From contig JANYBJ010000004.1 in NCBI GenBank assembly GCA_025360845.1, positions 1-38,922 on the forward strand: DNA of 38,922 nucleotides, given 5' to 3'. The position numbers were made by a program, and so were the translations under genes. Position 1 is the first letter of the stretch. The number at the start of each line of letters is the position of its first letter. This DNA is from a bacterium. GTDB lineage: Bacteria > Verrucomicrobiota > Kiritimatiellia > RFP12 > UBA1067. Under the pieces are notes generated by a model. That model was not told the origin of the DNA, made no database searches, and was given only the letters and a program-made list of their open reading frames with translations. Positions 1 through 33,934 of the stretch are shown piece after piece.

Positions 1-2793
1 GGCCGCTTCTGGCACGCGGTCACGCCCTCCAACAGCGTGCTGTTCACGTGGCAGGACGTGTTCGCGGGAAACGACACGAACTCGCCCGTGACCTTCCAGG
101 CCGAGCTTTTCTGGAACGGCGATTTCACCTGCCGCTACGCCTTCCCCTCCAACACGCTCGCCTCGCTGTATTCCTCGGACTTCACGAACTTCGTGATCGG
201 CGCCCAGAACAACGGCGGCGGCGAGACCTACGCCCTGAGCGACACCAACCTGCTCGTGAACGGCCTTGAGCTGCGCTGGCGGGCCTTCGGCATCCTCGAC
301 CCCGGAGGTCGAGGACCACGACGGCGACGGCGTCTCCACCTATGACGAGGTGATGGTCTACGGCACCGACCCGCGCCGCGCCGACACCGACGGCGACGGC
401 CTGTCCGACGCCGTCGAGCTGGCGTCCGGCTCGATCACCTCCGCCACCGACCCCGACACGGACCATGACGGGATGGCCGACGGCGCGGACCCCGAGCCGG
501 CGACCTGGAACGACGCCGAAGCCGACGCGGACGGCGACGGCTTCCCGCTGTGGCAGGAGCTTTTCTACGGCACGAGCGACACGGTGTCGAACGGCGTGCC
601 GCCGAACTGCCGGCTGGTCACTTTCACGGTTTCCGGGAACGTCCCGCCAGCCGCGGTCCTCTCCGTCGGCGGGTTCCCGGTGATGGCCGCGGCCCACCGG
701 CAGTTCAGCCTGTGGCTCCAGAAGGACACGGTCCGCCCGCTGGCCCTCGGCAACGCGCCGGGCGTCCATGTGGCCGTCACCGCTCAGGACTGCGTCGCTC
801 TGAGCGGGGCCACGGGCGGCTTCAGGTCCGGCGGCACCGGTCCGGGCACGGCGTCCCTGGCGGTCCCCGAGGTGAAGCTGGGGGCGGGCGGCGTCCTCTG
901 CCTGCACCGGGGCGAGACCGGCATGGCCGCGCGGGTGACGGCGGACCTGCCCGGCACCTTCGCCTGGTACCTCAATTCGCGCTATCTGGAGGGTGTCGGC
1001 AACGGCCCGGCCATCGGCACGAACGCGGTCGCGGCGGGCACCCGGCTGGCCGGGCCCAACGGATCTGCTGGCGGAAGGCATCGAGCCCAGCGAATACTTC
1101 GGCGACGCCGTCGCCGCCTTCAGCCACGAGCTCCACCCGACCGACACGCAGTGCGTCTTCTACACGGTGGCCGACGTGCGGCTTGATCCGGACACGATCA
1201 GCGCCGAAGGCCGCTACCTGATCCGCGGCAGCGGCGTCTGCACGGCCCGCGTCTCCGCGGTGACCGAATCCTGGCTCGAAGAGGGAACCGTCAGGCTCAC
1301 GTCCGACGGCGGGCTGTTCTTCAGCGGCACGCCGGGCGCGCCCGCCGCCTCCGCGCTGACATTCCAGACTAACGGCCCGCCCGGCTCCGTGGACGCCGCC
1401 CGCGATTTCTGGCTGGGCGCGACCAACAGCGGGCCGCAGACGCTGACCTACGAGCTGCTGGACCCTTACGGCTCAACCTTCCTCTCGACCAACCTCGCGG
1501 TCGAGGCGGTCATGGTCAAGCTCGCGACCAACGCGTACTATGTGGCTTACGGATCTGCCGCCCTTCTCGGCGTTGACCTCGCACCCGTCAGTTACGACCC
1601 GTCCGGTTATCTGCTCTATCTCGATGGCGAGTTGTGCGACGGGGGCTGGCCGCAGTGGTACGTGGACACAAGTTGCCTGACCGCCGGAGTGCACACACTG
1701 ACAGTGCAGTCATGGTCTTTGCCCGGATCTGGAAAACTCGGCCACACTCACTGTTGTCAAGTTATCATCTGTTTCCGCAACAGGTGCTATAAAGGTTACA
1801 AACGTTATTGGAAACGCAGATATCATTCATTTTGCAACCCCCAAAGGAGATAATCTTGACAACGTAACGTTGACTGCTGTTATCTCGCCTGATACTCCCG
1901 AGACGCATGCGCTAATTGACTGGGAAGGTGCCAGCGAAGACCCAAACCACCCATTGCAAGCAACAGTGTCAAAAGGAACATCTGCGAAACATGAAGTTAA
2001 AATCAAGCTGGCTGGAGGAGGTTATATTTCAAGAGAAATCGATGTTTGGGTTATATGGGCGACAGGTACTGGAATAAAAACAATTGCGGAACATGTTGTC
2101 CGCGGGAATATTTACGACCAGCATTCGCCGCCACAGGCCGGTATCGGAACGCAAATTAGCTGTGGATGGGTCTTTGAGTTTACAATTGAACCGTCGTCAA
2201 TTCTGACGGCATCTAATCGCCCCGATTTTTCAGGGTCGAACACTGTGAGTCCTCCAAACGGGCTTCATATCATGACGGGAAGCTTGCTGAGTGATGGTGC
2301 GAACAAGAAATGGGATGTCTCGCGAAGGATGAGAATTAAGTTGTTTTCTCCTGCCGTCGGCACTGCTTGGTTTGACGATCCTGGAGGCACAATATATGAC
2401 GATCTTCCAAGCGCCGCTATACTCAAAGAAGATTATCCCGCCAATTCAGTAGTTGGAAACGATGATACACTGCCGGACGATGAAAATAATATACCGGACG
2501 CAAACGGAAAGGTGGAATCGACAGACGTTGTCGGCAATCCAACAGTTCGTGATGCCGGTGGTAATGTTGGAAATTCATTTGAATTTCGTGCGCATTTCGG
2601 TGAGTTCCTCAGATTGGAAATAGAAGGGGGTTGGTCCCGTATTTCAGATTTCGTGAATTGGCGCGTGCACGGGAAATTGAAAAAGGCATCAGAAGCCTTG
2701 GATGGACAGGACTATAATTCGGATGGAGACCTGCTTGACGAATTATGGATCAATGATGGTTCAGTTAGTGACAACTCAAACACTGGATGGTAA
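1..2793 (+). pseudogene. Large secreted TSP3-repeat protein, 5'-truncated by window edge and broken by three frameshifts
   Basis: The reading frame is open from base 1 and continues an upstream gene. It moves from frame 1 to frame 2 near 301-305, to frame 3 near 1061 and back to frame 1 near 1725. Removing one base at each point restores a single protein of about 930 residues ending at the TAA at 2791-2793. The early part looks like a beta-rich surface domain. Positions 311-540 encode three acidic DxDxDG calcium-binding stretches of thrombospondin type 3 style (DHDGDG, DTDGDG, DADGDG). The rest has no motif I can name. Proteins of this style are common secreted or surface proteins in Kiritimatiellota and Verrucomicrobiota. 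The breaks may be real decay or read errors, since each is a single extra base. The part after about 1740 is visibly A+T-richer. Exact role unknown. Confidence 0.7.
1726..2793 (+). CDS. A+T-rich C-terminal module of the broken secreted protein
   Basis: This is the last in-frame piece of the gene that begins outside the window. The frame can be followed upstream of its first ATG (1870) to about 1726, where it joins the preceding piece if one G is removed. About 355 residues, no membrane segment, many Thr, Ser and Asp. A second acidic stretch near the end (YNSDGDLLDEL) resembles a DxDxDG-type loop. Codon use and base composition differ from the G+C-rich part before it and match the small gene that follows. 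I do not recognise a catalytic motif. It could be a conserved C-terminal domain of this protein family or an exchangeable tail. Confidence 0.5.
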   Translation, partial: DLENSATLTVVKLSSVSATGAIKVTNVIGNADIIHFATPKGDNLDNVTLTAVISPDTPETHALIDWEGASEDPNHPLQATVSKGTSAKHEVKIKLAGGGYISREIDVWVIWATGTGIKTIAEHVVRGNIYDQHSPPQAGIGTQISCGWVFEFTIEPSSILTASNRPDFSGSNTVSPPNGLHIMTGSLLSDGANKKWDVSRRMRIKLFSPAVGTAWFDDPGGTIYDDLPSAAILKEDYPANSVVGNDDTLPDDENNIPDANGKVESTDVVGNPTVRDAGGNVGNSFEFRAHFGEFLRLEIEGGWSRISDFVNWRVHGKLKKASEALDGQDYNSDGDLLDELWINDGSVSDNSNTGW

Positions 2794-2812
2794 AACAATC
2801 TAAGAGGATCTT

Positions 2813-3376
2813 ATGAGCTCTTGTACAAAGACCATGTTCCAGAACATTATTAGCGTCATATCTTTTACAGTCGTAATTCTGATGCCTCATGCATGTTTTT
2901 CGGATGAAACCGTGTTTACTGATTTTCTGAACTCTTACCGGTCAAATGTTTTGAAAGATCTGATTAAATCACAATATGTGGAATTGACTGGGGCCGATAT
3001 GGTAAAAGCCCAGAATGCAGTGGATGTTTTCAGAGATCTTCAGGGCACGGAGGTCTTGTATAACTCGGTAAAAAAAATATCAAACTATAAGCTGAAGTCA
3101 TACGTTGTAGTCTCGTTAAGAGGGCTCGTAAAAAAAGGGGATGTGAATGCTGTAAAACAACTTCTTTCAAATTTAGAAATGTCCTTTTCACTGACTTCGG
3201 GCGGCACTGAGACTGCGCTTTTGCGAGACCAATTTAGGGTTAATTTAGTCGAACTTGTTGCAGAAGTGTCCGGAGAGAGCAAAATACTCAACGCGCCTAA
3301 GAATGATAACGGGTATGAAAATACCATAACAATTATCAAAGAGTGGTTAGCAAAGGCTCCTGTTAAAGAAAAATAA
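2813..3376 (+). CDS. Small secreted protein of unknown function
   Basis: 187 residues. The start is set by AAGAGGA about 7 bases before the ATG. Residues 8-30 form a hydrophobic signal sequence ending around HACFSD, so the mature protein is probably periplasmic, or surface-bound if the Cys is lipidated (the context is not a clean lipobox). The remainder is predicted mostly helical, Lys/Val/Leu rich, with no motif I recognise. The gene lies 19 bp behind the broken secreted-protein gene, shares its low G+C content, and probably sits on the same transcript. A partner of the upstream C-terminal module is possible but not shown. Confidence 0.75.
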   Translation: MSSCTKTMFQNIISVISFTVVILMPHACFSDETVFTDFLNSYRSNVLKDLIKSQYVELTGADMVKAQNAVDVFRDLQGTEVLYNSVKKISNYKLKSYVVVSLRGLVKKGDVNAVKQLLSNLEMSFSLTSGGTETALLRDQFRVNLVELVAEVSGESKILNAPKNDNGYENTITIIKEWLAKAPVKEK

Positions 3377-3403
3377 TAAACGAATGAGAAAAAGGCTCCA
3401 TAC

Positions 3404-4647
3404 ATGCCGAAACCGTTGACAGAAACGTATCTTGCCGGAATGGCCACCATCCGCGCCACGCGTGCGGGTACTAAAGAGACGTCGCTTTATACGCCGCTGG
3501 CGAACCTTCTCAATGCCGTCGGCGATGAACTTTCGCCCTAGAAGAGCGACTGGAGCAGTATTTCGATGCGTCGGTTCAGATGGGCGATATCACGCAACGC
3601 TTCCCAAGCATCATGACTTCGACCGCCCGCTATGACGCGGAGAAGACACGCGTGCAGTTGGTCAAACGCGGTTTCCTTCGGGAGAACGTGGTGCGCTACC
3701 TGTACCGGCCTTTCGATGTGCGCTGGCTTTACTGGGAACCGGAAGGAAAGTTGCTGGATGAGAAGCGTCCCGAGTATTTTCCACAGCTATTTGAGGGTAA
3801 CATCTGGCTTGAGGCGCGGCAGCAGCAGCCGATGGCGAAGTTCGACCGGGGACTCTACACGACGGTTCTGGGCGACAACTTCGGCAACGGGCTGTCCAGT
3901 TTCTTCCCGCTATACAAGAAAAACGTTGCCGGCGATTTGTTCGAGGCTCCGCAAAGCAGCGACAAGCCCCAGCCGAACCTGGCCGATACAGCCAAGGAAA
4001 TGCTGGCGGGGCTGGAAGGCACGCCCGAGGAGCTGTTCTTCCACATTCTGGCGGTTCTGCACACGCCCAAGTACCGTGAAGAAAACGCGGACGCGTTGCG
4101 GCGCGACTGGCCGCGCATCCCGTTTCCGGAGACGCGCGAACGGTTGTCGGCCTCCGCCGCGCTGGGGCGGCAAGTGGCGGCGTTGCTGGATTCCGAGACG
4201 CCGGTACCGGGTGTGACATGTGGCAAGTTGAGCGACGTGTTGAAGCCGATGGGTGTATTGAAGCATCGCGAAGGGCGTGCAGTTCGGTCGGAGGAATTGG
4301 CGGTGACGGCGGGGTGGGGTCACGCGGGCAAAGGCGGCGTGACCATGCCGGGCAGGGGCAAGACCGAAGAACATGAAGACGGTTCGGTGGATGTGTTTCT
4401 TAACGGCGATGTTTACTGGGCGAACGTGCCCGGCACGGTTTGGGAGTACACCAGCGGTGGGTATCAGGTGGTCAAGAAGTGGCTCTCGTATCGCGAACAG
4501 CCTTTGCTGGAGCGTCCGCTGCAGGACGGAGAGGCGCGTTACGTCTCAGAAATGATCCGCCGTATCGCGGCGTTGCTTGACCTCGGTCCAGTACTCGATG
4601 CCAACTACGCGGAGTGCTATCTCCCGTCACGTTCGTCACGTTCTTGA
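3404..4647 (+). pseudogene. Remnant of a type ISP restriction-modification enzyme with the central domains deleted
   Basis: An N-terminal piece (3404-3541, 45 residues starting MPKPLTETYL, stop TAG at 3539) is followed in another frame by a C-terminal piece (from about 3538 to 4647). The first resembles the start of single-polypeptide type ISP enzymes. The second matches their C-terminal target-recognition domain, with the stretches RPFDVRWLYWEP, LLDEKRPEYF, EARQQQPM and GDNFGNGLSSFFPLY. In intact enzymes the nuclease, helicase and N6-adenine methylase modules lie between these parts, with several hundred residues. All are absent here and the join changes frame. A 355-residue product from an ATG-type start at 3580 could still be made but could not cut or methylate. 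The family call is from recognisable C-terminal phrases; the internal deletion is directly visible. Confidence 0.75.
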
Positions 4648-23198: not shown

Positions 23199-23570
23199 TT
23201 GTGTTACTTCTCCATCGCCCAAGAGGGTGGTATCGATGTTGCCTATCGAATGCTGGATAAACCCGATATCGTCCAAAGCGACGAGCGTTTTGCGATTTAT
23301 GCGCACGGCATGCTTCCTCTAATAGAAAAAAAGGATGAGAAGATTAGTTTGGCGGCCGCTTCAGTACTTCGGAAAGCCGCGCTACTCGAAGACGCAGAGA
23401 GTGCGGCTACGTACATCGACCGGTACCTTTTGATGGCAGATCCGACATGGACGAACGATGTCGCCCGAAAAGTGTTCGCGGATCGGTTTGTCAAACGTCC
23501 GGCCATCATGCCGTATTTCCGCGAAGTCCAGCAGAAGATCGGCAAGCCGGAAGCGGATGCCGCAAAGTAG
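23199..23570 (+). pseudogene. 5'-truncated helical-repeat protein fragment (copy 1)
   Basis: A frame of 123 residues that begins only at a TTG with no ribosome binding site, so it is probably the tail of a longer gene that lost its start. The sequence is alpha-helical, HEAT- or ARM-like in appearance (ISLAAASVLRKAALLEDAESAATYIDRYLL). No motif identifies a function. Its last 50 residues recur downstream in a second, shifted copy. Whether it is expressed is unclear. Confidence 0.45.
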
Positions 23571-23591
23571 ACGGTGCTGGTATGTTAAACA

Positions 23592-23766
23592 GATTGAGGA
23601 TGTCGAAGACAATGCAACTTACATCGACCGGTACCTTTTGAAGGCGGATCCGACATGGACGAACGATGTCGCCAGAAAAGTATTCGCGGACCGTTTCGTC
23701 AAACGCCCGGCCATCATGCCCTATTTCCCTGACGTCCAAAAGCAGATCGGCAAGCCGAAGGAGTGA
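23592..23766 (+). pseudogene. Duplicate 3' fragment of the same gene family (copy 2)
   Basis: From about 23592 the sequence encodes VKQIEDVEDNATYIDRYLLK and continues to the stop with about 85-90 percent identity by eye to the end of copy 1. The offset is 208 bp, so the two copies are in different frames. Only about 57 codons of real similarity remain and there is no start of its own. Most likely a leftover from unequal exchange within a tandem gene array. Confidence 0.5.
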
Positions 23767-24163: not shown

Positions 24164-24844
24164 ATGAAGAAGCCCCTGCTCGGAATCATCACGTCACTCG
24201 TGTTCTCGGCTGCACACGCCGCCGACCCAGCGCATGATAATGCGCTTGCCGCCGCTCTCAAGGCTTCTTACGAGGCGGAGGCTCAGAAGGAGTATAAGGA
24301 CGCCATCAAGGCCCTCGTCATACCGGCCGCGTCTGGCAGCTACATCGCCCAGTTGCGTCTGGGCTGGCTTGGCTACTGCGAGAAAGAGTGGGATGAAAGC
24401 AGCTCGCACTACAAGCAGGCCGCGCAGCTCGCGCCGTTCGCCATCGAGCCGCTGCTGGGACTGATGCTGCCGCAGCAGGGCGCAGGCAAGAACGACGACG
24501 CGCTCCACACGGCTCAAATCATTTTCCGGCACGATCCGAACAATTACACGGCGCTCTCCCGTTCCGCTTGGATATATTACTTGCAGCGGGATTACAAGCA
24601 GGCCGCCATGATGTATCACAAGCTGGTGACCCTTTACCCGTCCGATACGGAGATGCTGCTGGGGCTAGGCTTCTCGCTGAAGCTCGGAGGCGACCGGAAA
24701 GAGGCGGCCCAATACTTCAACACCGTCTTGCTTCTGAGTCCAGATAACACCCGTGCGGCAGAAGGTCTTCGTGAGGCTGCCGACAAAGGCAACGGCGTCA
24801 AAGGCGAACTGTCTCCCGGCCCCGGGCCCAAGCCGCGCCGCTAG
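24164..24844 (+). CDS. Periplasmic TPR-repeat protein, first gene of the operon
   Basis: 226 residues from the ATG at 24164, chosen because AAAGGA lies 8-9 bases upstream and a clean signal peptide follows (MKKPLLGIITSLVFSAAHA). An upstream in-frame ATG at 24101 would add a charged leader. The mature part has at least four tetratricopeptide-like helix pairs: near 25-60, 75-105, 115-150 and 150-185 (NYTALSRSAWIYYLQRDYKQAAMMY, then TEMLLGLGFSLKLGGDRKEAAQYF). The tail is Pro/Gly/Lys rich. Likely a periplasmic scaffold or peptidoglycan-associated adaptor. The PqqD-type gene follows after 35 bp. Confidence 0.82.
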   Translation: MKKPLLGIITSLVFSAAHAADPAHDNALAAALKASYEAEAQKEYKDAIKALVIPAASGSYIAQLRLGWLGYCEKEWDESSSHYKQAAQLAPFAIEPLLGLMLPQQGAGKNDDALHTAQIIFRHDPNNYTALSRSAWIYYLQRDYKQAAMMYHKLVTLYPSDTEMLLGLGFSLKLGGDRKEAAQYFNTVLLLSPDNTRAAEGLREAADKGNGVKGELSPGPGPKPRR

Positions 24845-24879
24845 GCGAACCATCGAGCGTGACAACAGGTGAGGATCCC

Positions 24880-25116
24880 ATGCATAAGCTTTCGCGACTG
24901 GCCATCAACGAAGAGGGTTTTGTTTTCAATCCTACGACGGGCGACAGTTTCCAGGTCAGCGAGACCGGCCTTGTCATTCTCGGCAAATTGAGGGACGGCC
25001 ATTCGGACGAGGCGATTGCCCAAGCGCTTGCGGAAAAATATGAGGTGAGTCTGGAGGACGCGCAGCGCGATGTGGCGGACTTCCGTGCCAGCCTGAAGAA
25101 TCTCAACTTGATCTGA
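24880..25116 (+). CDS. PqqD-family peptide-binding chaperone
   Basis: 78 residues from the ATG at 24880, which has GGTGAGG at the right distance; an earlier in-frame GTG (24859) overlaps that site. The pattern FVFNPTTGDSFQVSETGLVILGKL followed by DEAIAQALAEKYEV and a final FRASLKNLNLI is typical of PqqD-type winged-helix proteins. These bind leader peptides of ribosomally made peptides and present them to modifying enzymes. No PQQ genes, radical SAM enzyme or obvious precursor peptide lie in the window. It sits 8 bp before the ATP-grasp gene, which suggests it works with that ligase. Confidence 0.85.
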   Translation: MHKLSRLAINEEGFVFNPTTGDSFQVSETGLVILGKLRDGHSDEAIAQALAEKYEVSLEDAQRDVADFRASLKNLNLI

Positions 25117-25124
25117 GGTGCGTC

Positions 25125-26165
25125 ATGGACGAACTCTACATCGGCGTGTCAGGCATCAATGCGATTGATAATCCGGGCCCCGGCATTGGCGTCGCCCGCA
25201 GCCTCAAAGAAGATCCGGATCTCGCCGTGAACATCGTTGGCCTCGCCTACGACGCCATGGAGCCAGGCATCTATATGGATTGGGTCGTGGACAAATCGTT
25301 TATTCTTCCTTATCCATCCGGCGCCGGCGAGGCCTTTGTCGAGCGGCTGCTCTTCATCAAGCGGAACCACGGACTCGATGTCGTCATCCCGAATCTCGAC
25401 GCTGAACTGCCGCTTTACATCAAACACGCCGCCATGCTCGCCGACCACGGCATTCTCACCTTCCTGCCAAGCATGGAGCAGTTCCGGCTGCGCGGCAAAG
25501 ACCGGCTGCTCGACATCGCCTCGAAGATCAGCATCTCGCTGCCGTGTACCAAGATTGTGAACAGTTTGGACGGCCTGCTGCAGGCCCTCAAGGAGGTCGG
25601 TCTGCCCGCGATGGTGAAAGGCAGTTTTTACAAAGCCTATAAATGCCACACCGTTGCGGAGGCCGTATCGCACTATCACGATCTGGTTGCAGAGTGGGGG
25701 TACCCCATTATTGTCCAGCAGGTTGTTACGGGTGACGAAATGAACATTGTCGGACTCGGTGACGGCGAGGGCAACTCGCTCGGGCTCGTCGGCATCAAGA
25801 AATTATCGGTCACCGCGCTTGGAAAAATTTGGACCGGAGTCACGGTGAAGAACCAGAAGATGCTGGCGGCGGTGGCTGGTTTCATCCGGGAATTCAAGTG
25901 GCGCGGGCCGTTTGAGCTGGAGTGCATGGTCAATGGCGAGGAGGTATTTCTCATCGAGATCAATCCGCGTTTTCCGGCGTGGAGCTACTTTGCTACGGGC
26001 GTTGGCCTCAATTTGCCGTCACGCCTGGTTCGGCGATGCCTTGGCTTACCTGTGCCGCCTGTACCCGACTACGACGCCGGCAAACTCTTTATCCGCTACA
26101 CCTACGAACTTGTGACCGACATGGCGAATTTCCAGAAAGCGGTCACGCGAGGAGAGGCACCATGA
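25125..26165 (+). CDS. ATP-grasp family ligase
   Basis: 346 residues. The N-terminal part (GVSGINAIDNPGPGIGVARSLKE) is a pre-ATP-grasp fold like that of carbamoyl-phosphate-synthase relatives. The nucleotide-binding half includes LPAMVKGSFYKAYKCHT, PIIVQQVVTGDEMNIVGLGD, then GPFELECMVNGEEVFLIEINPRFPAWSYFATG. That last stretch carries the Glu and Asn metal ligands of the ATP-grasp active site. Such enzymes join a carboxylate to an amine through an acyl phosphate. The substrate cannot be told. The next gene starts within its stop codon (ATGA), so the two products are made in step. Confidence 0.9.
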   Translation: MDELYIGVSGINAIDNPGPGIGVARSLKEDPDLAVNIVGLAYDAMEPGIYMDWVVDKSFILPYPSGAGEAFVERLLFIKRNHGLDVVIPNLDAELPLYIKHAAMLADHGILTFLPSMEQFRLRGKDRLLDIASKISISLPCTKIVNSLDGLLQALKEVGLPAMVKGSFYKAYKCHTVAEAVSHYHDLVAEWGYPIIVQQVVTGDEMNIVGLGDGEGNSLGLVGIKKLSVTALGKIWTGVTVKNQKMLAAVAGFIREFKWRGPFELECMVNGEEVFLIEINPRFPAWSYFATGVGLNLPSRLVRRCLGLPVPPVPDYDAGKLFIRYTYELVTDMANFQKAVTRGEAP

Positions 26166-27523
26166 AACCCGCTTACGAGAAACCGGTTATCAAGAAGCTG
26201 CACAACGGGCTGATGAACAAGTTCGGGTACAGTCCCGCCTACGCCCGCAAGGTGCGCACCGACATCGACGGCGTGCCTGTCGCCGACCTCGTCGAGAAGT
26301 TCGGCTCGCCGCTGTTTGTCTATTCGGAGCGCATCCTCCGGCAGAAATACCGCCAAATGCACACGGCGTTCTCGACGCGCTATCCGAATGTCGTTTTCGG
26401 ATGGTCCTACAAGACCAACTATCTCAACGCCATCTGCGCGCTTATGCACCAGCAAGGCTCGATTGCCGAGGTGGTGTCCGGCATGGAGTACGAGAAAGCG
26501 CGTGCGCTCGGTGTTCCAGGTGAAAACATCATCTTCAACGGACCTCACAAAGCGCAGGCCGCACTGGAAACGGCTGTCCGCGAGGGTGCGATGATCAATG
26601 TGGACCACCTCGATGAGATCTACGCCCTTGAACGGGTCGCTCAAAAGCTCGGGCGGCAACTCCATGTGGGCCTGCGCTTGAACCTCGACGCTGGCGTGTA
26701 TCCGCAATGGTCGAGGTTCGGGTTTAACCTGGAGAGCGGCCAGGCCTTGGAGGCTGCCAAACGCATGAAGTACGGCGGCAAACTGGTGCTTAGCGGACTG
26801 CACTGTCACCTCGGCACCTTCATCATGGATGCGGGCGCTTACGCGCGGCAGGTCGAGAAGATGGTCGCTTTCGGGTGTGAGCTCGAAAAGGCCTTCGGCT
26901 ATTCCATCGAGTATCTCGACATCGGCGGCGGGTTCCCGTCGAAGAGCCGGCTCAAGGGCGTCTACCTGCCGCCCGAAGTCGCGTTGCCTGCCATTGATGA
27001 GTATGCGGAGGCCATTGCACAGGCGTTGACCAAGGCGTTGCGACCGGGCGATTTTCCGAAGCTGATTCTCGAGTCCGGTCGCGCGCTGGTGGACGAAGCC
27101 GGTTTCCTGATCACCACCATCACAGCCACGAAGCGCCTGCCAGACGGCACGCGCGCCTACGTGGCCGACGCCGGCGTGAACCTGCTCTTCACGGCGAACT
27201 GGTTTAAATTCAACATTGAGATGGACCGTGAAGTCGGCGGCGTCAACGAGCAGAGCGTCATCTATGGCCCGCTCTGCATGAACATTGACGTGGTGGACGA
27301 GAGCGTGCTTCTGCCGCCGCTCTCATGCGGGATGCGGCTGACGGTTTCGCCGGTGGGCGCCTATAACCACACGCAGTCCTTGCAGTTTATTGAATATCGG
27401 CCCGCCTCGGTGCTCATCGGCGAACGCGGCGAAGTGGACCTCATCCGCGAGGCCGAGGACCTGGCCGACATCACGCGGCGGGAGCGGATGCCCAAGCGGT
27501 TCGCGCAGGAAGAAGTCGGATGA
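26162..27523 (+). CDS. Fold-type III PLP enzyme, diaminopimelate-decarboxylase-like
   Basis: 453 residues with all the parts of an active DAP/ornithine decarboxylase-type enzyme. The PLP lysine is Lys84 (WSYKTNYL), His216 is in GLHCHLGTF, the phosphate-binding glycines are at 255-257 (DIGGGFPSK), ESGRALVDEAG begins at Glu304, and the second-subunit stretch CMNIDVV has Cys372 and Asp376. It should remove a carboxyl group from a D- or L-amino acid end, or racemise it. Differences from LysA (YKTN instead of AVKAN, CMNID instead of CESxD) and its partners argue against plain lysine synthesis. It overlaps both neighbours by 4 bp. Confidence 0.88.
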   Translation: MKPAYEKPVIKKLHNGLMNKFGYSPAYARKVRTDIDGVPVADLVEKFGSPLFVYSERILRQKYRQMHTAFSTRYPNVVFGWSYKTNYLNAICALMHQQGSIAEVVSGMEYEKARALGVPGENIIFNGPHKAQAALETAVREGAMINVDHLDEIYALERVAQKLGRQLHVGLRLNLDAGVYPQWSRFGFNLESGQALEAAKRMKYGGKLVLSGLHCHLGTFIMDAGAYARQVEKMVAFGCELEKAFGYSIEYLDIGGGFPSKSRLKGVYLPPEVALPAIDEYAEAIAQALTKALRPGDFPKLILESGRALVDEAGFLITTITATKRLPDGTRAYVADAGVNLLFTANWFKFNIEMDREVGGVNEQSVIYGPLCMNIDVVDESVLLPPLSCGMRLTVSPVGAYNHTQSLQFIEYRPASVLIGERGEVDLIREAEDLADITRRERMPKRFAQEEVG

Positions 27524-29586
27524 AGGCACACCTCAAAGCTTTCTTTTGCAGCTACGCGGACGTTTTCTTCCTGCCGGCTGTCTCGCTTGGCGTGATCATC
27601 TTCACGTTAACGCTGGTCTACCCGGCCATGGCGCTGGCGGGAATCATCGCCGTCGCGGCAGCGTATGGCTTTGCGCGGCTGGTTCGGATGGAAAAGCAGT
27701 TCTTGGAGTCCGGCTACTACACCTACAATCCGTTGCTGGTCGGGTTGTCGCTCGGGTACCTGTTCCAGTTCAGCGCGCTGACCGCCTTCTTCATCGCGTG
27801 CGCCGGCGTGATGACGTTCCTGGTCACCGTCTTTCTTTCGAATGTGTTCCTGACCTATTTGAGGCTGCCGATTCTGAGTCTGCCGTTTGTGGTCGTCAGT
27901 TCGGTCGCCTACCTCGCGTCGGCACGCTATTCGGACCTGGCGGTTCGGCTGCACGCCGACACCGCGATCCTGACGACGGATTTCGGCATGCCTTTCTGGC
28001 TGTCCGGCTTCTTCAAGGCGTTCGGCGCGGTGCTCTTCATGCCAAGCGTTGTGGTGGGGGTCGTGCTGAGCGTCGTGGTGCTGCGCCATTCACGCGTGCA
28101 GTTTCTGCTGGCGCTGCTCGGCTATTACACCGGCGCGGCAATCCGCGCGCTCATGGTCGGCTCGGCCGCGCTGGCCTTTGCGGACCTCAACAACTTCAAC
28201 TTCATCTTCATCGCGATGGCGGTGGGCGGCGTGTTTCTCATCCCGTCGCGCACCAGCTACCTGCTCGCCCTGATCGCGGTTGCCGTTTCCACGATGCTGA
28301 TGGATGCGGCCACCGGGTTCTGGTATTACTACGGCATTCCCGTGTTCACGCTGCCGTTCAACGTCGTGACGCTCGGCATGCTTTACGTGCTGGCGCTGAT
28401 GCGGCATCCGATGGTTGTCACGAGCATGGGTCGCACGCCGGAGGAGACGCTTGAGATTCACCTCGCCAACCGTCTCCGTTATCCAGGCCAGGAGCGCACG
28501 CTTTTCCTGCCGTTCGCAGGCAAGTGGACGGTGTGGCAGGGCTTCGACGGGCAGTGGACGCACAAGGGCAGCTGGCGTTACGCCTACGATTTCGTCATCA
28601 CCGACGAGCAGGGCAAGATGCATGGAGGCGAGGGCGTGCGGCTCGACGACTACTACTGCTTCAACAAGCCGGCGCTTTCGCCGGTGCGCGGCCGCGTCGC
28701 GCAGATTGTGGACGACCTGCCCGACAGTCCCATCGGCGGAGCTGACGCGGCCAACAACTGGGGCAACGTCGTCATCATCGAGGATCCGCGCGGCTTCTTC
28801 GTGGAGCTGTCGCACTTCGCCGAAAAAACCGTCCGCGTGAAAAAGGGCGAGTGGGTCGAGCGCGGCACGGTGCTGGGCTTGTGCGGCAACAGCGGATACT
28901 CGCCGCAGCCGCACATCCACGTGCAGATACAGTCTGCTGAAGCCATTGGCGCGGCATCGTTGCCGTTCAGCTTCGTCAGTTACGCTGAAGGCGGCGAGTT
29001 CCATTCGAATAACCTGCCGCAGGAGCAGCACAAGGTGGAGCCGCTCTACCGCGACAAACGCCTCGACAACATCACCAACTTCGTGCTCGATGACGAACTG
29101 CACTATCACGTCTTGCGCGACGGAAAAGAGGCAGGCGACCTTAAACTGAAAGTGAAGATGGCGTCGGACGGCTCGTTCTATTTCGAGTCGCCGCGCGGCC
29201 AGCTCTATTTCGGCAAACACGAAGGCACCTTCTATTTTTATCGCGTCACCGGCGAGGACAAATGGCTGCGTCTGCTTTTCCTCGCATTGCCCCGGATGCC
29301 GCTGGCCTACCGTGAAAAGCTGACGTGGCATGACTATGTGCCGGCGGGGCTGGTCATATCCGGCTTGCGCGGAGCGGTGGTGGGCTTCCTCAGTTCCTTA
29401 TGTCCTAGGCTGGCCACGGTGAAAGTGACGCAGACCTTCGTGAGCGAGAGCCGCATCGCGACCCTTGTGGCCGTCGGCGTGTTGCACCAGCGCCGGTGCG
29501 CTTCGGTTGAGTTGGACCGGCAGAAGGGGTTTGCCGCGGTGACCGTGGATGATGTGACACTCAGGAGGGTGAGCCACGAGCCTTGA
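27520..29586 (+). CDS. Urea-transporter-like membrane domain fused to an M23 metallopeptidase
   Basis: 688 residues. Residues 1-300 have about ten hydrophobic segments. They resemble the urea transporter family: YTYNPLLVGLSLGYLF early, and YYYGIPVFTLPFNVVTLGMLYVLAL at the end, like the GxPVLTxPF region of true urea channels. Residues 320-480 form an M23 (LytM) peptidase domain. His348 and Asp357 lie in HKGSWRYAYDF, His432 in LSHFAE, and His465/His467 in PQPHIHVQIQ, so the zinc ligands are present. A beta-rich tail follows (500-688). M23 enzymes cut peptidoglycan cross-links, so the protein could couple a channel to the cell wall. Urea transport itself is not claimed. It overlaps the PLP enzyme gene by 4 bp. 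Confidence 0.85.
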   Translation: MKAHLKAFFCSYADVFFLPAVSLGVIIFTLTLVYPAMALAGIIAVAAAYGFARLVRMEKQFLESGYYTYNPLLVGLSLGYLFQFSALTAFFIACAGVMTFLVTVFLSNVFLTYLRLPILSLPFVVVSSVAYLASARYSDLAVRLHADTAILTTDFGMPFWLSGFFKAFGAVLFMPSVVVGVVLSVVVLRHSRVQFLLALLGYYTGAAIRALMVGSAALAFADLNNFNFIFIAMAVGGVFLIPSRTSYLLALIAVAVSTMLMDAATGFWYYYGIPVFTLPFNVVTLGMLYVLALMRHPMVVTSMGRTPEETLEIHLANRLRYPGQERTLFLPFAGKWTVWQGFDGQWTHKGSWRYAYDFVITDEQGKMHGGEGVRLDDYYCFNKPALSPVRGRVAQIVDDLPDSPIGGADAANNWGNVVIIEDPRGFFVELSHFAEKTVRVKKGEWVERGTVLGLCGNSGYSPQPHIHVQIQSAEAIGAASLPFSFVSYAEGGEFHSNNLPQEQHKVEPLYRDKRLDNITNFVLDDELHYHVLRDGKEAGDLKLKVKMASDGSFYFESPRGQLYFGKHEGTFYFYRVTGEDKWLRLLFLALPRMPLAYREKLTWHDYVPAGLVISGLRGAVVGFLSSLCPRLATVKVTQTFVSESRIATLVAVGVLHQRRCASVELDRQKGFAAVTVDDVTLRRVSHEP

Positions 29587-29608
29587 CTCAAACCGTCTGC
29601 CAGGCGCG

Positions 29609-30508
29609 TTGACGCCCGCGTTCGTGAGCCGCCTCATCCTGTGGATAAAGGCCGCCGCGCTCCTGCGCCTGACGTGCGGCACGCACGTCGCCTTTGCCGC
29701 AAATCAGGTCGGCCTCTCCGCCTACAGTTCCGAAATCGCCGCGTATTGCGCCTATCTCAATTACCACGACACCGCTTCCAAAGACCACTCATACTTGGCC
29801 GGCGCCTATGCGTCTCTTGGCTGCGGTATGGAGCACCTGTTGGAAGCCGAGGCGGACACGATACGGAAGTGCTATCGCGGATATCCGTCCCTGAGTCAAA
29901 ACGACACCACAATCGCCTATGCCAATTTCAGCGTCCCGCACCTCAAGTTGCGCATCGGCGGACACTTTGTCGACAGTGAAGATCCCTATACCGACCAAGG
30001 CCGGGTCGCGTTTGGCGGCGCAGAATACTACGTGGCCAGGCGCTGGTCCGCCGGCGTGGACAGCGCGTACACGAAGTACCCGAATTTTCAAACCGGACTC
30101 GAGGTTGTCCAGCTCACGCCGCATGTGGGCGTCACGTTCGGGCGGGGCGGGCAGCATCTCTGGAACAATGACCTGCGGGGGTACTGGATTCACCTGAGCC
30201 GCGACTTTGACGGGCTAGGCGATGATTTTGTCTCAGCCGAGGACAGGATCTCGTTCATCTGGCAGCGCTGGACGTTCTCGACAGTTGGCTGGGCCGGTGA
30301 GCAACTCTTCGCCGTTCGCAACGAAGGCTTCGCGCTCTACAATACGGGCGAGGAACACAAAGCCGGTTATGGCGCGGAAGTCAGCTACGCGTTCTCAGAA
30401 CACCTCGCCCTCAAAGTGCGGGCCAACCGGGAGGAGTTCAGGGACATTGCCTCCACACCCCATGCCTCTTCGGACATGTATTTGGCGATGTTAAGCCTGC
30501 GATTCTAA
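29609..30508 (+). CDS. Outer-membrane beta-barrel-like protein
   Basis: About 299 residues. No ATG fits. TTG at 29609 or GTG at 29624 are the candidate starts, both leading into a signal sequence (LILWIKAAALLRLTCGTHVAFA-ANQ). The mature chain is made of alternating short strands rich in aromatic residues and Gly, with Asp/Asn turns (HLKLRIGGHFVDSEDPY, GRVAFGGAEYYVARRWSAGV), and it ends in a phenylalanine (AMLSLRF), the usual C-terminal mark for outer-membrane barrel insertion. Likely a porin- or receptor-like partner of the operon. It lies 22 bp after the fusion gene. Exact start uncertain. Confidence 0.75.
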   Translation: MTPAFVSRLILWIKAAALLRLTCGTHVAFAANQVGLSAYSSEIAAYCAYLNYHDTASKDHSYLAGAYASLGCGMEHLLEAEADTIRKCYRGYPSLSQNDTTIAYANFSVPHLKLRIGGHFVDSEDPYTDQGRVAFGGAEYYVARRWSAGVDSAYTKYPNFQTGLEVVQLTPHVGVTFGRGGQHLWNNDLRGYWIHLSRDFDGLGDDFVSAEDRISFIWQRWTFSTVGWAGEQLFAVRNEGFALYNTGEEHKAGYGAEVSYAFSEHLALKVRANREEFRDIASTPHASSDMYLAMLSLRF

Positions 30509-30526
30509 CCGCGAAAGAAACACGTT

Positions 30527-31957
30527 ATGAAAAAATACACAGACCTCCTGCTTATCGTGGCTTGCTTGTTCTCCGTGCGGCCCGCCTGCGCCCAAGTGCC
30601 CCAGCTCCTCAACTACCAGGGCCGTGTCACCGTCGGCGGCACGAATTTCGATGGCACGGCCCAGTTCAAGTTCGCCCTCGTCAACGCGACCGGCAGCACC
30701 AACTACTGGAGCAACGATGGTCGCGTCACGGGCCAACCCGTAACCGCCGTCGCACTCAGTGTCACCAAGGGCCTCTACTCGGTGCTGTTGGGCGACACCG
30801 GTGTGGCTGGCATGGGGTATGCGGTTTCGTCCCTCATCTTCACGAACTCCGAGGTGCGTCTGCGGGTGTGGTTCAACGACGGAGTGACCGGTTTCCAGCA
30901 GCTCACGCCGGACCAGCGCGTTGCCGCCGTCGGTTATGCGCTGGTGGCTGCGAACGTGGATCCCGCCGCAGACGTTCGCGGCCAGCGCCTGCTCATCGGT
31001 GCGGGTCATGTCTTGAGCGGGACAAACGCGACGATCGCCGGAGGTTATCTGAACGTCGCAACGAACAGCTACGCTGCCGTCGGAGGCGGGTTGGGCAATA
31101 TGGCCGGCGGCAGTGGCGCTACCGCCAGCGGCGGCCTTACAAACACGGCTACAGGCTTCGCGGCAACAGTCTCGGGAGGCGAGTGGAACTGGGCCAGCGG
31201 TGCGGCTTCCTTAATCGGTGGCGGCTACGGGAATTTGGCCAGCGGCGTGGAATCGGTTGTCGGAGGCGGCGAAATGAACGGCGCGTCAGGGGTCATTTCG
31301 TTCGTGGGGGGCGGATATGGCAATATCGCCAGCGGCTATGCTGCGGCGATCCCTGGCGGTTATGCCAATCTGGCCAGCGGGCCGTATTCATTTGCCGCAG
31401 GCGCAGGGGCTGTGGTGACGAATATTGGGGCGTTCGTCTGGGCCGACGCGTCCAGCACAAACGCGGTTCGCTCCACCGTCAACAACCAGTTCACTGCCCG
31501 TTGTGCCGGCGGTGTGCGTTTCTACGCCAACTCCAATGCCACTGTCGGCGTGCAACTGGTTGCGGGCGGCAACGCTTGGAGCGCCACCAGTGACCGTACC
31601 CTCAAGGAGAACTTCCGGCCTGTCGATACCCGCGCCGTACTGGCAAAGGTGGCGGCGACACCCGTGACGGAGTGGAACCTGATCTCACAAGATCCCGCCA
31701 TCCGCCACATCGGGCCGATGGCGCAGGACTTCAAGGCCGCGTTCGATGTCGGCGAAGATGACCGCCATATCAGCACCTCCGACGCAGACGGCGTGGCTTT
31801 CGCCGCGATCCAAGGACTGGATGACGTCATGAAAGAAAAGGAGGCGCGTATCGCGGAATTGGAAAGGCGTCTGAACGGGTTGGAAGCCAAGTTGCAACAA
31901 CTCGGTCGCCTTCTCGAACAGGCACCCCATACCCGTATCCGGGAGCAAACAGAATGA
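30527..31957 (+). CDS. Secreted fibre-like protein: YadA-head repeats and S74 chaperone domain
   Basis: 476 residues. Signal peptide LLLIVACLFSVRPACA-QVP. Residues 25-150 form a beta domain beginning PQLLNYQGRVTVGGTNFDGT, seen in many secreted proteins of this phylum. Residues 160-300 hold about eight short repeats of the type GGGYGNLASG, as in trimeric YadA heads. A peptidase S74 (intramolecular chaperone) domain begins near 354 with SDRTLKENF and includes GPMAQDF. The final 50 residues are a coiled coil (KEKEARIAELERRLNGLEAKLQQL). Expected to form a trimeric surface fibre. S74 also occurs in phage tail spikes, but no phage genes are nearby. It starts 18 bp after the barrel gene and its stop overlaps the next start. 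Confidence 0.85.
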   Translation: MKKYTDLLLIVACLFSVRPACAQVPQLLNYQGRVTVGGTNFDGTAQFKFALVNATGSTNYWSNDGRVTGQPVTAVALSVTKGLYSVLLGDTGVAGMGYAVSSLIFTNSEVRLRVWFNDGVTGFQQLTPDQRVAAVGYALVAANVDPAADVRGQRLLIGAGHVLSGTNATIAGGYLNVATNSYAAVGGGLGNMAGGSGATASGGLTNTATGFAATVSGGEWNWASGAASLIGGGYGNLASGVESVVGGGEMNGASGVISFVGGGYGNIASGYAAAIPGGYANLASGPYSFAAGAGAVVTNIGAFVWADASSTNAVRSTVNNQFTARCAGGVRFYANSNATVGVQLVAGGNAWSATSDRTLKENFRPVDTRAVLAKVAATPVTEWNLISQDPAIRHIGPMAQDFKAAFDVGEDDRHISTSDADGVAFAAIQGLDDVMKEKEARIAELERRLNGLEAKLQQLGRLLEQAPHTRIREQTE

Positions 31958-32859
31958 ACGCGCCACCGCAAGTCCGTTTGAGCGTAATAGCCCTCGCTGT
32001 CACACCGGTACTGCTGGTGGCACCTTCCGTTTTGTTCGCCGCTGGTGCCGCCTCGGTACTCGACTCCGGCGGCAAGCGCGTGGTCAGCGCCACGTACAGC
32101 ATGGATGGCAGCCTCGCCAGTCTGGGTGGCATCACCGCAGCGGCCTCGCCGCAAGTGGTCGCTAGACACGGCTACGCGGGCCAACTCTACGATGTGCAAA
32201 GCCTCGCCATCAGCGCTTCGGCGGGTACGGTCAATGAAACCGGCACGAGCCAGCTTAGCGCCAAGGCAAACTTGGACGATTCCACTTTTCTTTCGCTTGC
32301 CGCAACCAGTGTCGTATGGAGTGTGGCGAGTGGCCCCATCGCTTCCATCAGTATCAGCGGCCTCGCGACCGCTTCCAACGTGTACCAAGACACTGCGGCC
32401 ACGGTGCGCGCTGATTATCAATCCAAGGTCAGCACCCTGCCTCTCACGGTCCTCAACGTGGGCAATGACGATTACGGGCTCTATGCTCAAGACGGCCTGG
32501 ATGACGCCTGGCAAGTCCGCTACTTCGGAGTCAACAACCCTCAAGCCGGCCCGGATGCCGACCCTGATGGCGAGGGCGTGAGCAACTACAAGGAGTTTAT
32601 CGCCGACACGAACCCGACCAATGCGCTCTCCTTCTTTCACATCCTGAACATCGCTCATGCCGCGGGCTTCAGCGTCTTCTTCCAATCCTCTGCGGATCGG
32701 AAATACACGCTTTATTACGCGACCAATCTGGCTTCTTCGGCATGGACGAACATTCCGTCTCAGACCGAAATTCCCGGCAGCGGCGGGGTGGGGGTGCTGA
32801 CTGATCCTTCACCCGCCGGCAGATATCGGTATTATCGTGTCGGAGTCAGGTTGCCGTGA
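31954..32859 (+). CDS. Secreted protein with Ig-like domain and calcium-type segment, last gene of the operon
   Basis: 301 residues with a signal peptide (PVLLVAPSVLFA-AGA). Residues 30-75 contain a strand-rich part (KRVVSATYSMDGSLASLGG) that recurs in secreted proteins of Verrucomicrobiota. Residues 75-165 resemble a bacterial Ig-like domain. Around 180-215 lies DDAWQVRYFGVNNPQAGPDADPDGEGVSNYKEF, a single DxDxDG segment. The C-terminal 80 residues are beta-rich (KYTLYYATNLASSAWTNIP). Coupled to the fibre gene by an ATGA overlap. Role unknown; possibly surface attachment. Confidence 0.78.
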   Translation: MNAPPQVRLSVIALAVTPVLLVAPSVLFAAGAASVLDSGGKRVVSATYSMDGSLASLGGITAAASPQVVARHGYAGQLYDVQSLAISASAGTVNETGTSQLSAKANLDDSTFLSLAATSVVWSVASGPIASISISGLATASNVYQDTAATVRADYQSKVSTLPLTVLNVGNDDYGLYAQDGLDDAWQVRYFGVNNPQAGPDADPDGEGVSNYKEFIADTNPTNALSFFHILNIAHAAGFSVFFQSSADRKYTLYYATNLASSAWTNIPSQTEIPGSGGVGVLTDPSPAGRYRYYRVGVRLP

Positions 32860-33846: not shown

Positions 33847-33934
33847 GGAGGGGTGTCTGAGTGGTTTAAAGAACCGGTCTTGAAAACCGGCGAGCCGCAA
33901 GGTTCCGGGGGTTCGAATCCCTCCCCCTCCGCCA
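33847..33934 (+). tRNA. tRNA-Ser (anticodon UGA)
   Basis: An 88-nt cloverleaf with the CCA end encoded. Acceptor arm GGAGGGG pairs with CCCCTCC, the D arm follows TGTCTGAGTGG, the anticodon loop CTTGAAA (anticodon TGA at 33881-33883) sits on a CCGGT/ACCGG stem, and there is a long variable arm (GCGAGCCGCAAGGTTCC) typical of serine tRNA. The T arm is GGGGGTTCGAATCCCTC. Reads UCA and other UCN codons. Confidence 0.96.

Follow-up and report, generated by a model that had tools for sequence, protein, structure and literature searches.

A conserved four-gene cassette with a lasso-type PqqD domain and a leader-like tail on a decarboxylase: a candidate recognition system built on an enzyme tag

The window analyzed here is a stretch of 38,922 nucleotides, positions 1 to 38,922 of contig JANYBJ010000004.1, from a bacterium of the Verrucomicrobiota (assembly GCA_025360845.1, 5.17 Mb in 326 contigs). 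It contains eight genes on the same strand with gaps of 35, 8, -4, -4, 22, 18, and -4 bp, as an open reading frame (ORF) check confirmed, and the single operon proposed in a sequence-only reading of this DNA is supported. The families named there (TPR, PqqD, ATP-grasp, UT-M23, barrel, and S74 fibre) were recovered with Pfam and NCBIfam models, the barrel match being weak. Four consecutive genes make up the cassette that we describe, coding for a PqqD protein, an ATP-grasp ligase, a pyridoxal phosphate (PLP)-dependent decarboxylase preceded by a leader-like tail, and UT-M23, a fusion of a urea-channel (UT) domain with an M23 peptidase domain. The PqqD protein resembles the recognition elements (RREs) of pathways for ribosomally synthesized and posttranslationally modified peptides (RiPPs). 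The features of the core are as follows; all ORF end coordinates include stop codons.

24880..25116, + strand: PqqD/lasso-B1-type RRE (PF05402, 3.4e-12); core gene 1
25069..25071, + strand: codon for D64 of PqqD, the predicted Asp binding the Tyr or Trp of the tail (by linkage to tail type; maps to LppB D70/PbaB1 Q79, PMC13381572)
25125..26165, + strand: ATP-grasp ligase, CPSase-like, PRK12767 type (best model PRK12767, 2.1e-22); core gene 2
26162..27523, + strand: tailed PLP-dependent decarboxylase (Orn/DAP/Arg decarboxylase, 1.4e-34); core gene 3
26174..26191, + strand: YEKPVI, RRE-binding-type motif, tail residues 5 to 10 of the PLP enzyme ([Y/W/F/L]xxPx[I/L/V/M] in 77/77 tails)
26192..26227, + strand: spacer and second tail motif, tail residues 11 to 22, ending in NKFG (no indel between the motifs in 77 tails)
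27520..29586, + strand: UT-M23 fusion with urea-channel, M23 peptidase, and beta-rich C-terminal domains (Pfam, AlphaFold); core gene 4
27538..28389, + strand: UT channel domain of UT-M23 (UT, 6.1e-57), with A170 at the dvUT E187 position
28537..28944, + strand: M23 domain of UT-M23 (Peptidase_M23, 7.5e-10), with H348, D357, H432, H465, and H467

Of 83 loci with UT-M23, a set in which a few contigs occur twice, 73 keep the order PqqD, ATP-grasp, PLP enzyme, UT-M23 on one strand; several of the other 10 lie at contig ends. When a single genome of each species was scanned, 18 UT-M23 loci came up, labeled Verrucomicrobia, Persephonella, Thiotrichaceae/Thiomargarita, Wallbacteria, Calditrichota, Desulfobacterales, Aminicenantes, Fibrobacter, and Balneolaceae, and the 73 cassettes were drawn from Verrucomicrobiota, Aquificota, Bacteroidota, Gammaproteobacteria, and others. 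By profile search, UT-M23 occurs in 42 of 136 genomes of the Aquificota, the phylum of the Persephonella locus, in 16 of 369 genomes of the class of the Thiomargarita locus, and in 33 of 394 and 13 of 245 genomes, respectively, of the phylum and class of the Balneolaceae locus. For the phylum of the window, 15 of 388 genomes matched the profile, only six of the matches covering both UT and M23. Pairwise distances of the four core families correlate with one another (0.82 to 0.90, Mantel p 0.001). Because order and strand are kept and the family distances are correlated, the four-gene core, as judged by comparative sequence analysis, is a real cassette and not a chance arrangement; the sequence-only reading had staked its proposal on these four families staying together elsewhere, and they do.

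In four Aquificota genomes the cassette is split, with UT-M23 alone and the tailed PLP gene elsewhere, adjoined by PqqD and ATP-grasp in three of them. No tailed PLP enzyme was detected in 25 genomes sampled from those without UT-M23. The ATP-grasp tree groups the window with L002, L044, and L003 as a small starred clade, and two of these three are known Verrucomicrobiota; a search of the other close relatives did not find the cassette. The latter could point to a recent transfer into just this genome, but given the clade, patchy retention in the phylum, or exchange among its members, is as likely. Three divergent cassettes from the class of the window (L046, L047, and L048) lack the barrel and TPR genes; upstream of their PqqD gene, reading by eye showed ECF-type-sigma-like and zinc-ribbon (possibly kinase-like) genes, with an FHA-like gene in L046. 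We found no description of the four-gene system in NCBIfam or in the literature of an open-access collection: no NCBIfam equivalog cutoff was reached and no article joining these families was found, in line with the earlier claim that this is not an already described pathway. The parts are known, while the system as a whole appears new, with a recognition step apparently borrowed from RiPP pathways.

An element of the cassette that the sequence-only reading had passed over is the stretch of about 29 residues preceding the catalytic domain of the PLP enzyme. AlphaFold confidence (pLDDT) is 27 to 42 in this tail, indicative of disorder, and 77 to 95 over most of the first 140 residues of the domain; despite these low values, the tail is conserved across phyla. 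Its first block, [Y/W/F/L]xxPx[I/L/V/M], begins with Tyr in 60, Phe in 9, Trp in 7, and Leu in 1 of 77 sequences, and its Pro is present in all 77. A second, GxxNKFG-like motif is nearly as constant (G in 71, N in 65, K in 73, F in 64, and G in 70 of the 77), the spacing between the two is free of indels, and a variable linker then leads to the enzyme. In lasso leader numbering, the Tyr falls at -17, the Lys at -2, the Phe at -1, and the Gly at +1. Discrete lasso-type RREs recognize the leader consensus [Y/W]xxPx[L/V/I/A/F/Y] (PMC13381572), located at positions -17 to -12 (PMC10368454), so that the spacing from motif to +1 in the tail equals that of lasso leaders. At the level of sequence, the decarboxylase tail thus carries a match to the motif at which lasso-type RREs bind their leaders. 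Most Gammaproteobacteria loci among L165 to L171 combine a Trp tail (WxxPx[I/L]) with a shortened PqqD C terminus, echoing the choice between Tyr and Trp known from lasso leaders. LysA-like paralogues in genomes with the cassette and LysA in genomes without it mostly match the profile from about position 32 or later, i.e., they have no tail, and in the genomes searched with the tail profile, the PLP enzyme was the only significant match.

The partner of this motif is predicted from the PqqD side. A PqqD profile compared with solved structures retrieved first the lasso RREs TbiB1 (5.7e-10) and TfuB1 (1.3e-9), ahead of the PqqD of pyrroloquinoline quinone (PQQ) synthesis, whose model PQQ_PqqD gave 16.2 bits against a cutoff of 46. 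The predicted leader cleft comprises F24, V26, I33, L50, Y54, V56, D64, F68, L72, and L77. PbaB1 could be mapped onto it directly, because the 9x90_B chain follows the PbaB1 numbering of PMC13381572 at every cleft position (PbaB1 Y39 to F24, L41 to V26, I44 to T29, I48 to I33, L65 to L50, Y69 to Y54, V71 to V56, E75 to D60, Q79 to D64, F83 to F68, L87 to L72, and L92 to L77); 10 of the 12 positions are alike in chemistry. Nearest relatives and retained pocket support the earlier view of PqqD as a peptide-binding adaptor, as far as sequence can tell. In LppB, the Tyr-binding Asp sits at the position of PbaB1 Q79 (PMC13381572), i.e., of D64 here. Of 63 cassettes whose tail motif starts with Tyr or Trp, 62 have Asp at this position, compared with 0 of 10 whose motif starts with Phe or Leu; no other PqqD column separates the two groups nearly as clearly (0.98 versus 0.51 for the next best). 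According to the ATP-grasp tree, the linked loss of D64 took place in two separate clades, with at least two independent losses.

A precursor peptide would be the usual ligand of an RRE of this type, and the sequence-only reading had called for a search for small conserved ORFs. The search was done and none came of it: of 1,563 small ORFs around the 73 cassettes, 19 carry the motif compared with 22.8 expected after shuffling, and none is widely conserved. A separate precursor was rejected as a candidate, as motif-bearing small ORFs are at background and the motif occurs only on the PLP enzyme. With no conserved precursor nearby, the partner of PqqD is most likely the tail of the decarboxylase itself; conversely, the presence of the RRE-binding motif on that enzyme accounts for the missing precursor. 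Nor does the operon fit the lasso, PQQ, or graspetide classes. It has the B1-type RRE of lasso pathways but no separate precursor with a YxxPxL leader, and Pfam and NCBIfam searches of the operon revealed neither a B2 leader peptidase nor an asparagine-synthetase-like cyclase. As noted earlier for this DNA, PQQ genes and radical SAM enzymes are missing: no PqqD equivalog and no radical SAM match was obtained among the eight genes. The ATP-grasp enzyme is PRK12767/CPSase-like rather than of the graspetide type, and no graspetide precursor was found.

The catalytic residues of the cassette are intact. K84, H214, R307, C372, and D376 are invariant in the decarboxylase alignment, and fold, PLP lysine, and catalytic Cys are those of a type III PLP decarboxylase. 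The sequence-only reading had called this protein diaminopimelate (DAP)-decarboxylase-like; its fold is LysA-like, but the enzyme scores 223 bits with the LysA model TIGR01048 (cutoff 297.9), and its closest solved relative by sequence is the N-citrylornithine decarboxylase FslC (7kh2; 206 bits versus 154 for LysA, about 30% identity), which a fold search likewise ranks nearest. FslC is best by structure, though its model NF041039 gives 220.9 bits for a cutoff of 500. BtrK is also among the matches of the sequence and fold searches. The active-site motif of LysA is CESSD; at this site the cassette enzyme has GPLCMNID, sharing CMxxD with FslC. By sequence comparison, the decarboxylase is nearer to N-citrylornithine decarboxylase than to LysA. 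In the CPSase-like ATP-grasp protein, E266, E278, and N280 are invariant, preserving the acidic/Asn metal site.

UT-M23 combines two recognizable domains. The first reaches 193.5 bits with the Pfam UT model (cutoff 25), matches 3k3f (E = 3.2e-14), and is 25% identical to dvUT; the second scores 39.3 bits with Peptidase_M23 (cutoff 28.7). The AlphaFold model has a mean pLDDT of 87.9, and a fold search returned the UT fold of 3k3f first, followed by M23/LytM folds. Of the five zinc and catalytic residues of M23, H348, D357, and H432 are conserved in 23/23 loci, and H465 and H467 in the 22/22 loci that reach them. In the channel, the So-site Glu (E187 in dvUT; numbering of the F80A mutant 3m6e) is A170 here and A, S, T, V, or L in all loci; the position of dvUT Q24, aligned by eye, is mostly Glu. 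UT proteins have both termini inside. Given this topology and the charge pattern (a variable acidic loop between the repeats, a basic N terminus, and a basic segment past the last helix), the M23 domain is predicted to be cytoplasmic, which makes it a less obvious candidate for the envelope or peptidoglycan role suggested earlier. We found no description of this channel-hydrolase architecture in the literature searched. In addition, L035 to L042 encode soluble M23 proteins with an M23 domain of the UT-M23 type (E = 1e-28 to 1e-45), and at G1039:C1:2246024-2247996 the UT and M23 halves are in two overlapping frames, possibly a broken or split UT-M23.

The remaining genes of the operon are accessory or local.

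24164..24844, + strand: TPR protein, periplasmic type (Pfam TPR families); accessory
29609..30508, + strand: outer-membrane barrel-like protein, TTG start (weak OMP_b-brl match); accessory, frequent
30527..31957, + strand: S74-chaperone fibre protein (PF13884; Peptidase_S74, 6.1e-12); local Verrucomicrobiota addition, not core
31954..32859, + strand: last gene, predicted secreted protein (found in 3 loci); not core

A barrel and/or TPR gene stands alongside 67 of 73 cassettes, and the barrel adjoins the cassette in many phyla. Both are missing from the other 6, so they are not obligatory. According to a tally of gene order, TPR usually lies downstream of the barrel; here and in a few other loci it lies upstream. 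The fibre and the last gene, previously counted as parts of the system, are found in only 4 and 3 loci, respectively, and were not retained. The C-terminal part of the last gene, perhaps a sorting or surface domain, is found again at 14 other places in the genome and there often belongs to very large ORFs. Directly upstream of the operon, a segment encoding YIDRYLL.ADPTWTNDVARKVFADRFVKRPAIMPYF is present twice in tandem, in different frames, at 23199-23766, indicating a local duplication. A tRNA-Ser(tga) gene at 33847-33934, approximately 1 kb downstream, is a possible insertion landmark, and the G+C content of positions 2001 to 4000 is 0.47, compared with 0.58 to 0.67 in the rest of the window.

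Sequence evidence supports the cassette itself, the motif in the tail, a PqqD pocket of the lasso type, the linked change at D64, and the intactness of the catalytic residues; the binding itself, all of the chemistry, the direction of transport, and the product are inferred. PqqD would bind the flexible tail, YEKPVI ... NKFG, as a strand in its cleft, and it probably does dock there. Docking would gather the decarboxylase with the ATP-grasp ligase and probably also with the cytoplasmic part of UT-M23. The ligase would link a carboxylate to an amino acid, and the decarboxylase would strip a carboxyl group from the conjugate, as N-citrylornithine decarboxylase does. On the cytoplasmic side, the zinc M23 domain may trim or hydrolyze a peptide or amide bond, and a small polar product, an amide or an amine, would exit through the UT channel and, where present, the barrel/TPR pair. 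The complete pathway from docking through synthesis to export is a tentative proposal that we would not bet on, and the explanation as a whole, placed between docking and pathway, has an even chance of being right. Its broadest formulation, for which the odds are slightly short of even, is that an RRE moved out of peptide biosynthesis and became an assembly adaptor, reading a leader-like tag on an enzyme and coupling ligase, decarboxylase, and channel-peptidase as an export metabolon across phyla.

Several observations weigh against this proposal. PbaB1 I44 is replaced by T29 in the cleft of PqqD, and the Asp has an exception in L045, which pairs a Tyr tail with N64. The D64 link is backed by no more than two to three independent changes, too few for an independent-pairs test, for which reason we consider the link between D64 and the tail strong but not conclusive. 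Genome G917 has UT-M23, and no tailed PLP enzyme was detected in it. The channel may conduct a permeant other than urea, as its site residues differ from those of dvUT, and the substrates proposed for the ATP-grasp and decarboxylase enzymes are guesses. Lastly, some soluble M23 relatives start with signal-like sequences and appear to be exported, which is odd beside a cytoplasmic M23 domain.

Among other explanations, the one that fares best, though unlikely, is RiPP-like: the tail is itself the substrate, a leader (Y-17 to F-1) is built into the enzyme, and a cut between F21 and G22, e.g., by M23, or a modification of the conserved Lys or Asn makes or activates something. The exact lasso leader spacing, the conservation of NKFG at the position where lasso leaders are cut (PMC10368454), and the intact M23 active site would fit, but the tail is followed by a variable linker and the enzyme instead of a core peptide, the tails of L046 to L048 have Lys replaced by Pro and Gly by Ala or Ser, and the cassette lacks a lasso protease or cyclase gene. 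Somewhat less probable is the synthesis of a siderophore or metallophore, with the ATP-grasp enzyme in place of a siderophore (NIS) synthetase and an FslC-like enzyme decarboxylating the conjugate. The nearest solved enzyme and the shared CMxxD argue for it; the FslC score of 221, far under 500, and the lack of a recurrent receptor, ABC uptake, or NIS gene in the cassette argue the other way. Decidedly improbable is an ordinary RiPP pathway in which the tail is a coincidence and the precursor gene either is unlinked or escaped detection: RREs of this type do act on precursor peptides (PMC7470986), but the motif-bearing small ORFs at background, the lack of any that is conserved near the 73 cassettes, the restriction of the tail profile to the PLP enzyme, and the joint shift of tail residue and D64 speak against coincidence. 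Equally improbable is the earlier proposal of peptidoglycan or envelope remodeling with a DAP-derived product and a periplasmic M23 domain: M23 domains are mostly murein hydrolases, the decarboxylase fold is LysA-like, and many loci have barrel and TPR genes, but we rejected this pathway on the subthreshold LysA score, GPLCMNID in place of CESSD, and the predicted cytoplasmic location of M23, which makes it weak, and some cassettes have neither barrel nor TPR.

Docking of PqqD on an enzyme tail thus remains our preferred reading. RiPP pathways are found mainly by way of their RREs; if the proposal is true, a widespread RRE with an enzyme as its ligand would alter the interpretation of orphan PqqD genes, and the cassette would represent an enzyme-tagging system from nature whose structural code is known.

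The B1 RREs of lasso systems (TbiB1, TfuB1, and PbaB1) are the closest parallel, as they share with the cassette the RRE type, the motif [Y/W]xxPx[I/L/V], its spacing to +1, and the pocket, including the Tyr-binding Asp. In lasso systems, however, the motif is on a precursor peptide processed with a B2 protease and a cyclase, whereas the cassette has it on an enzyme and possesses neither gene. FslC of rhizoferrin synthesis resembles the decarboxylase in sequence, fold, and CMxxD, but identity is about 30%, the score is far under the model cutoff, and the cassette has no citrate synthetase partner. In butirosin synthesis, the ATP-grasp ligase BtrJ and the type III PLP decarboxylase BtrK similarly form a pair, acting on a tethered amino acid; the tether there is the acyl carrier protein BtrI, whereas the cassette lacks a carrier protein and has an RRE and a channel instead. 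Finally, the urea channels dvUT and UT-B have the UT fold in common with the channel of the cassette, in which M23 and an additional beta domain are fused to this fold and the So-site Glu is replaced in all loci.

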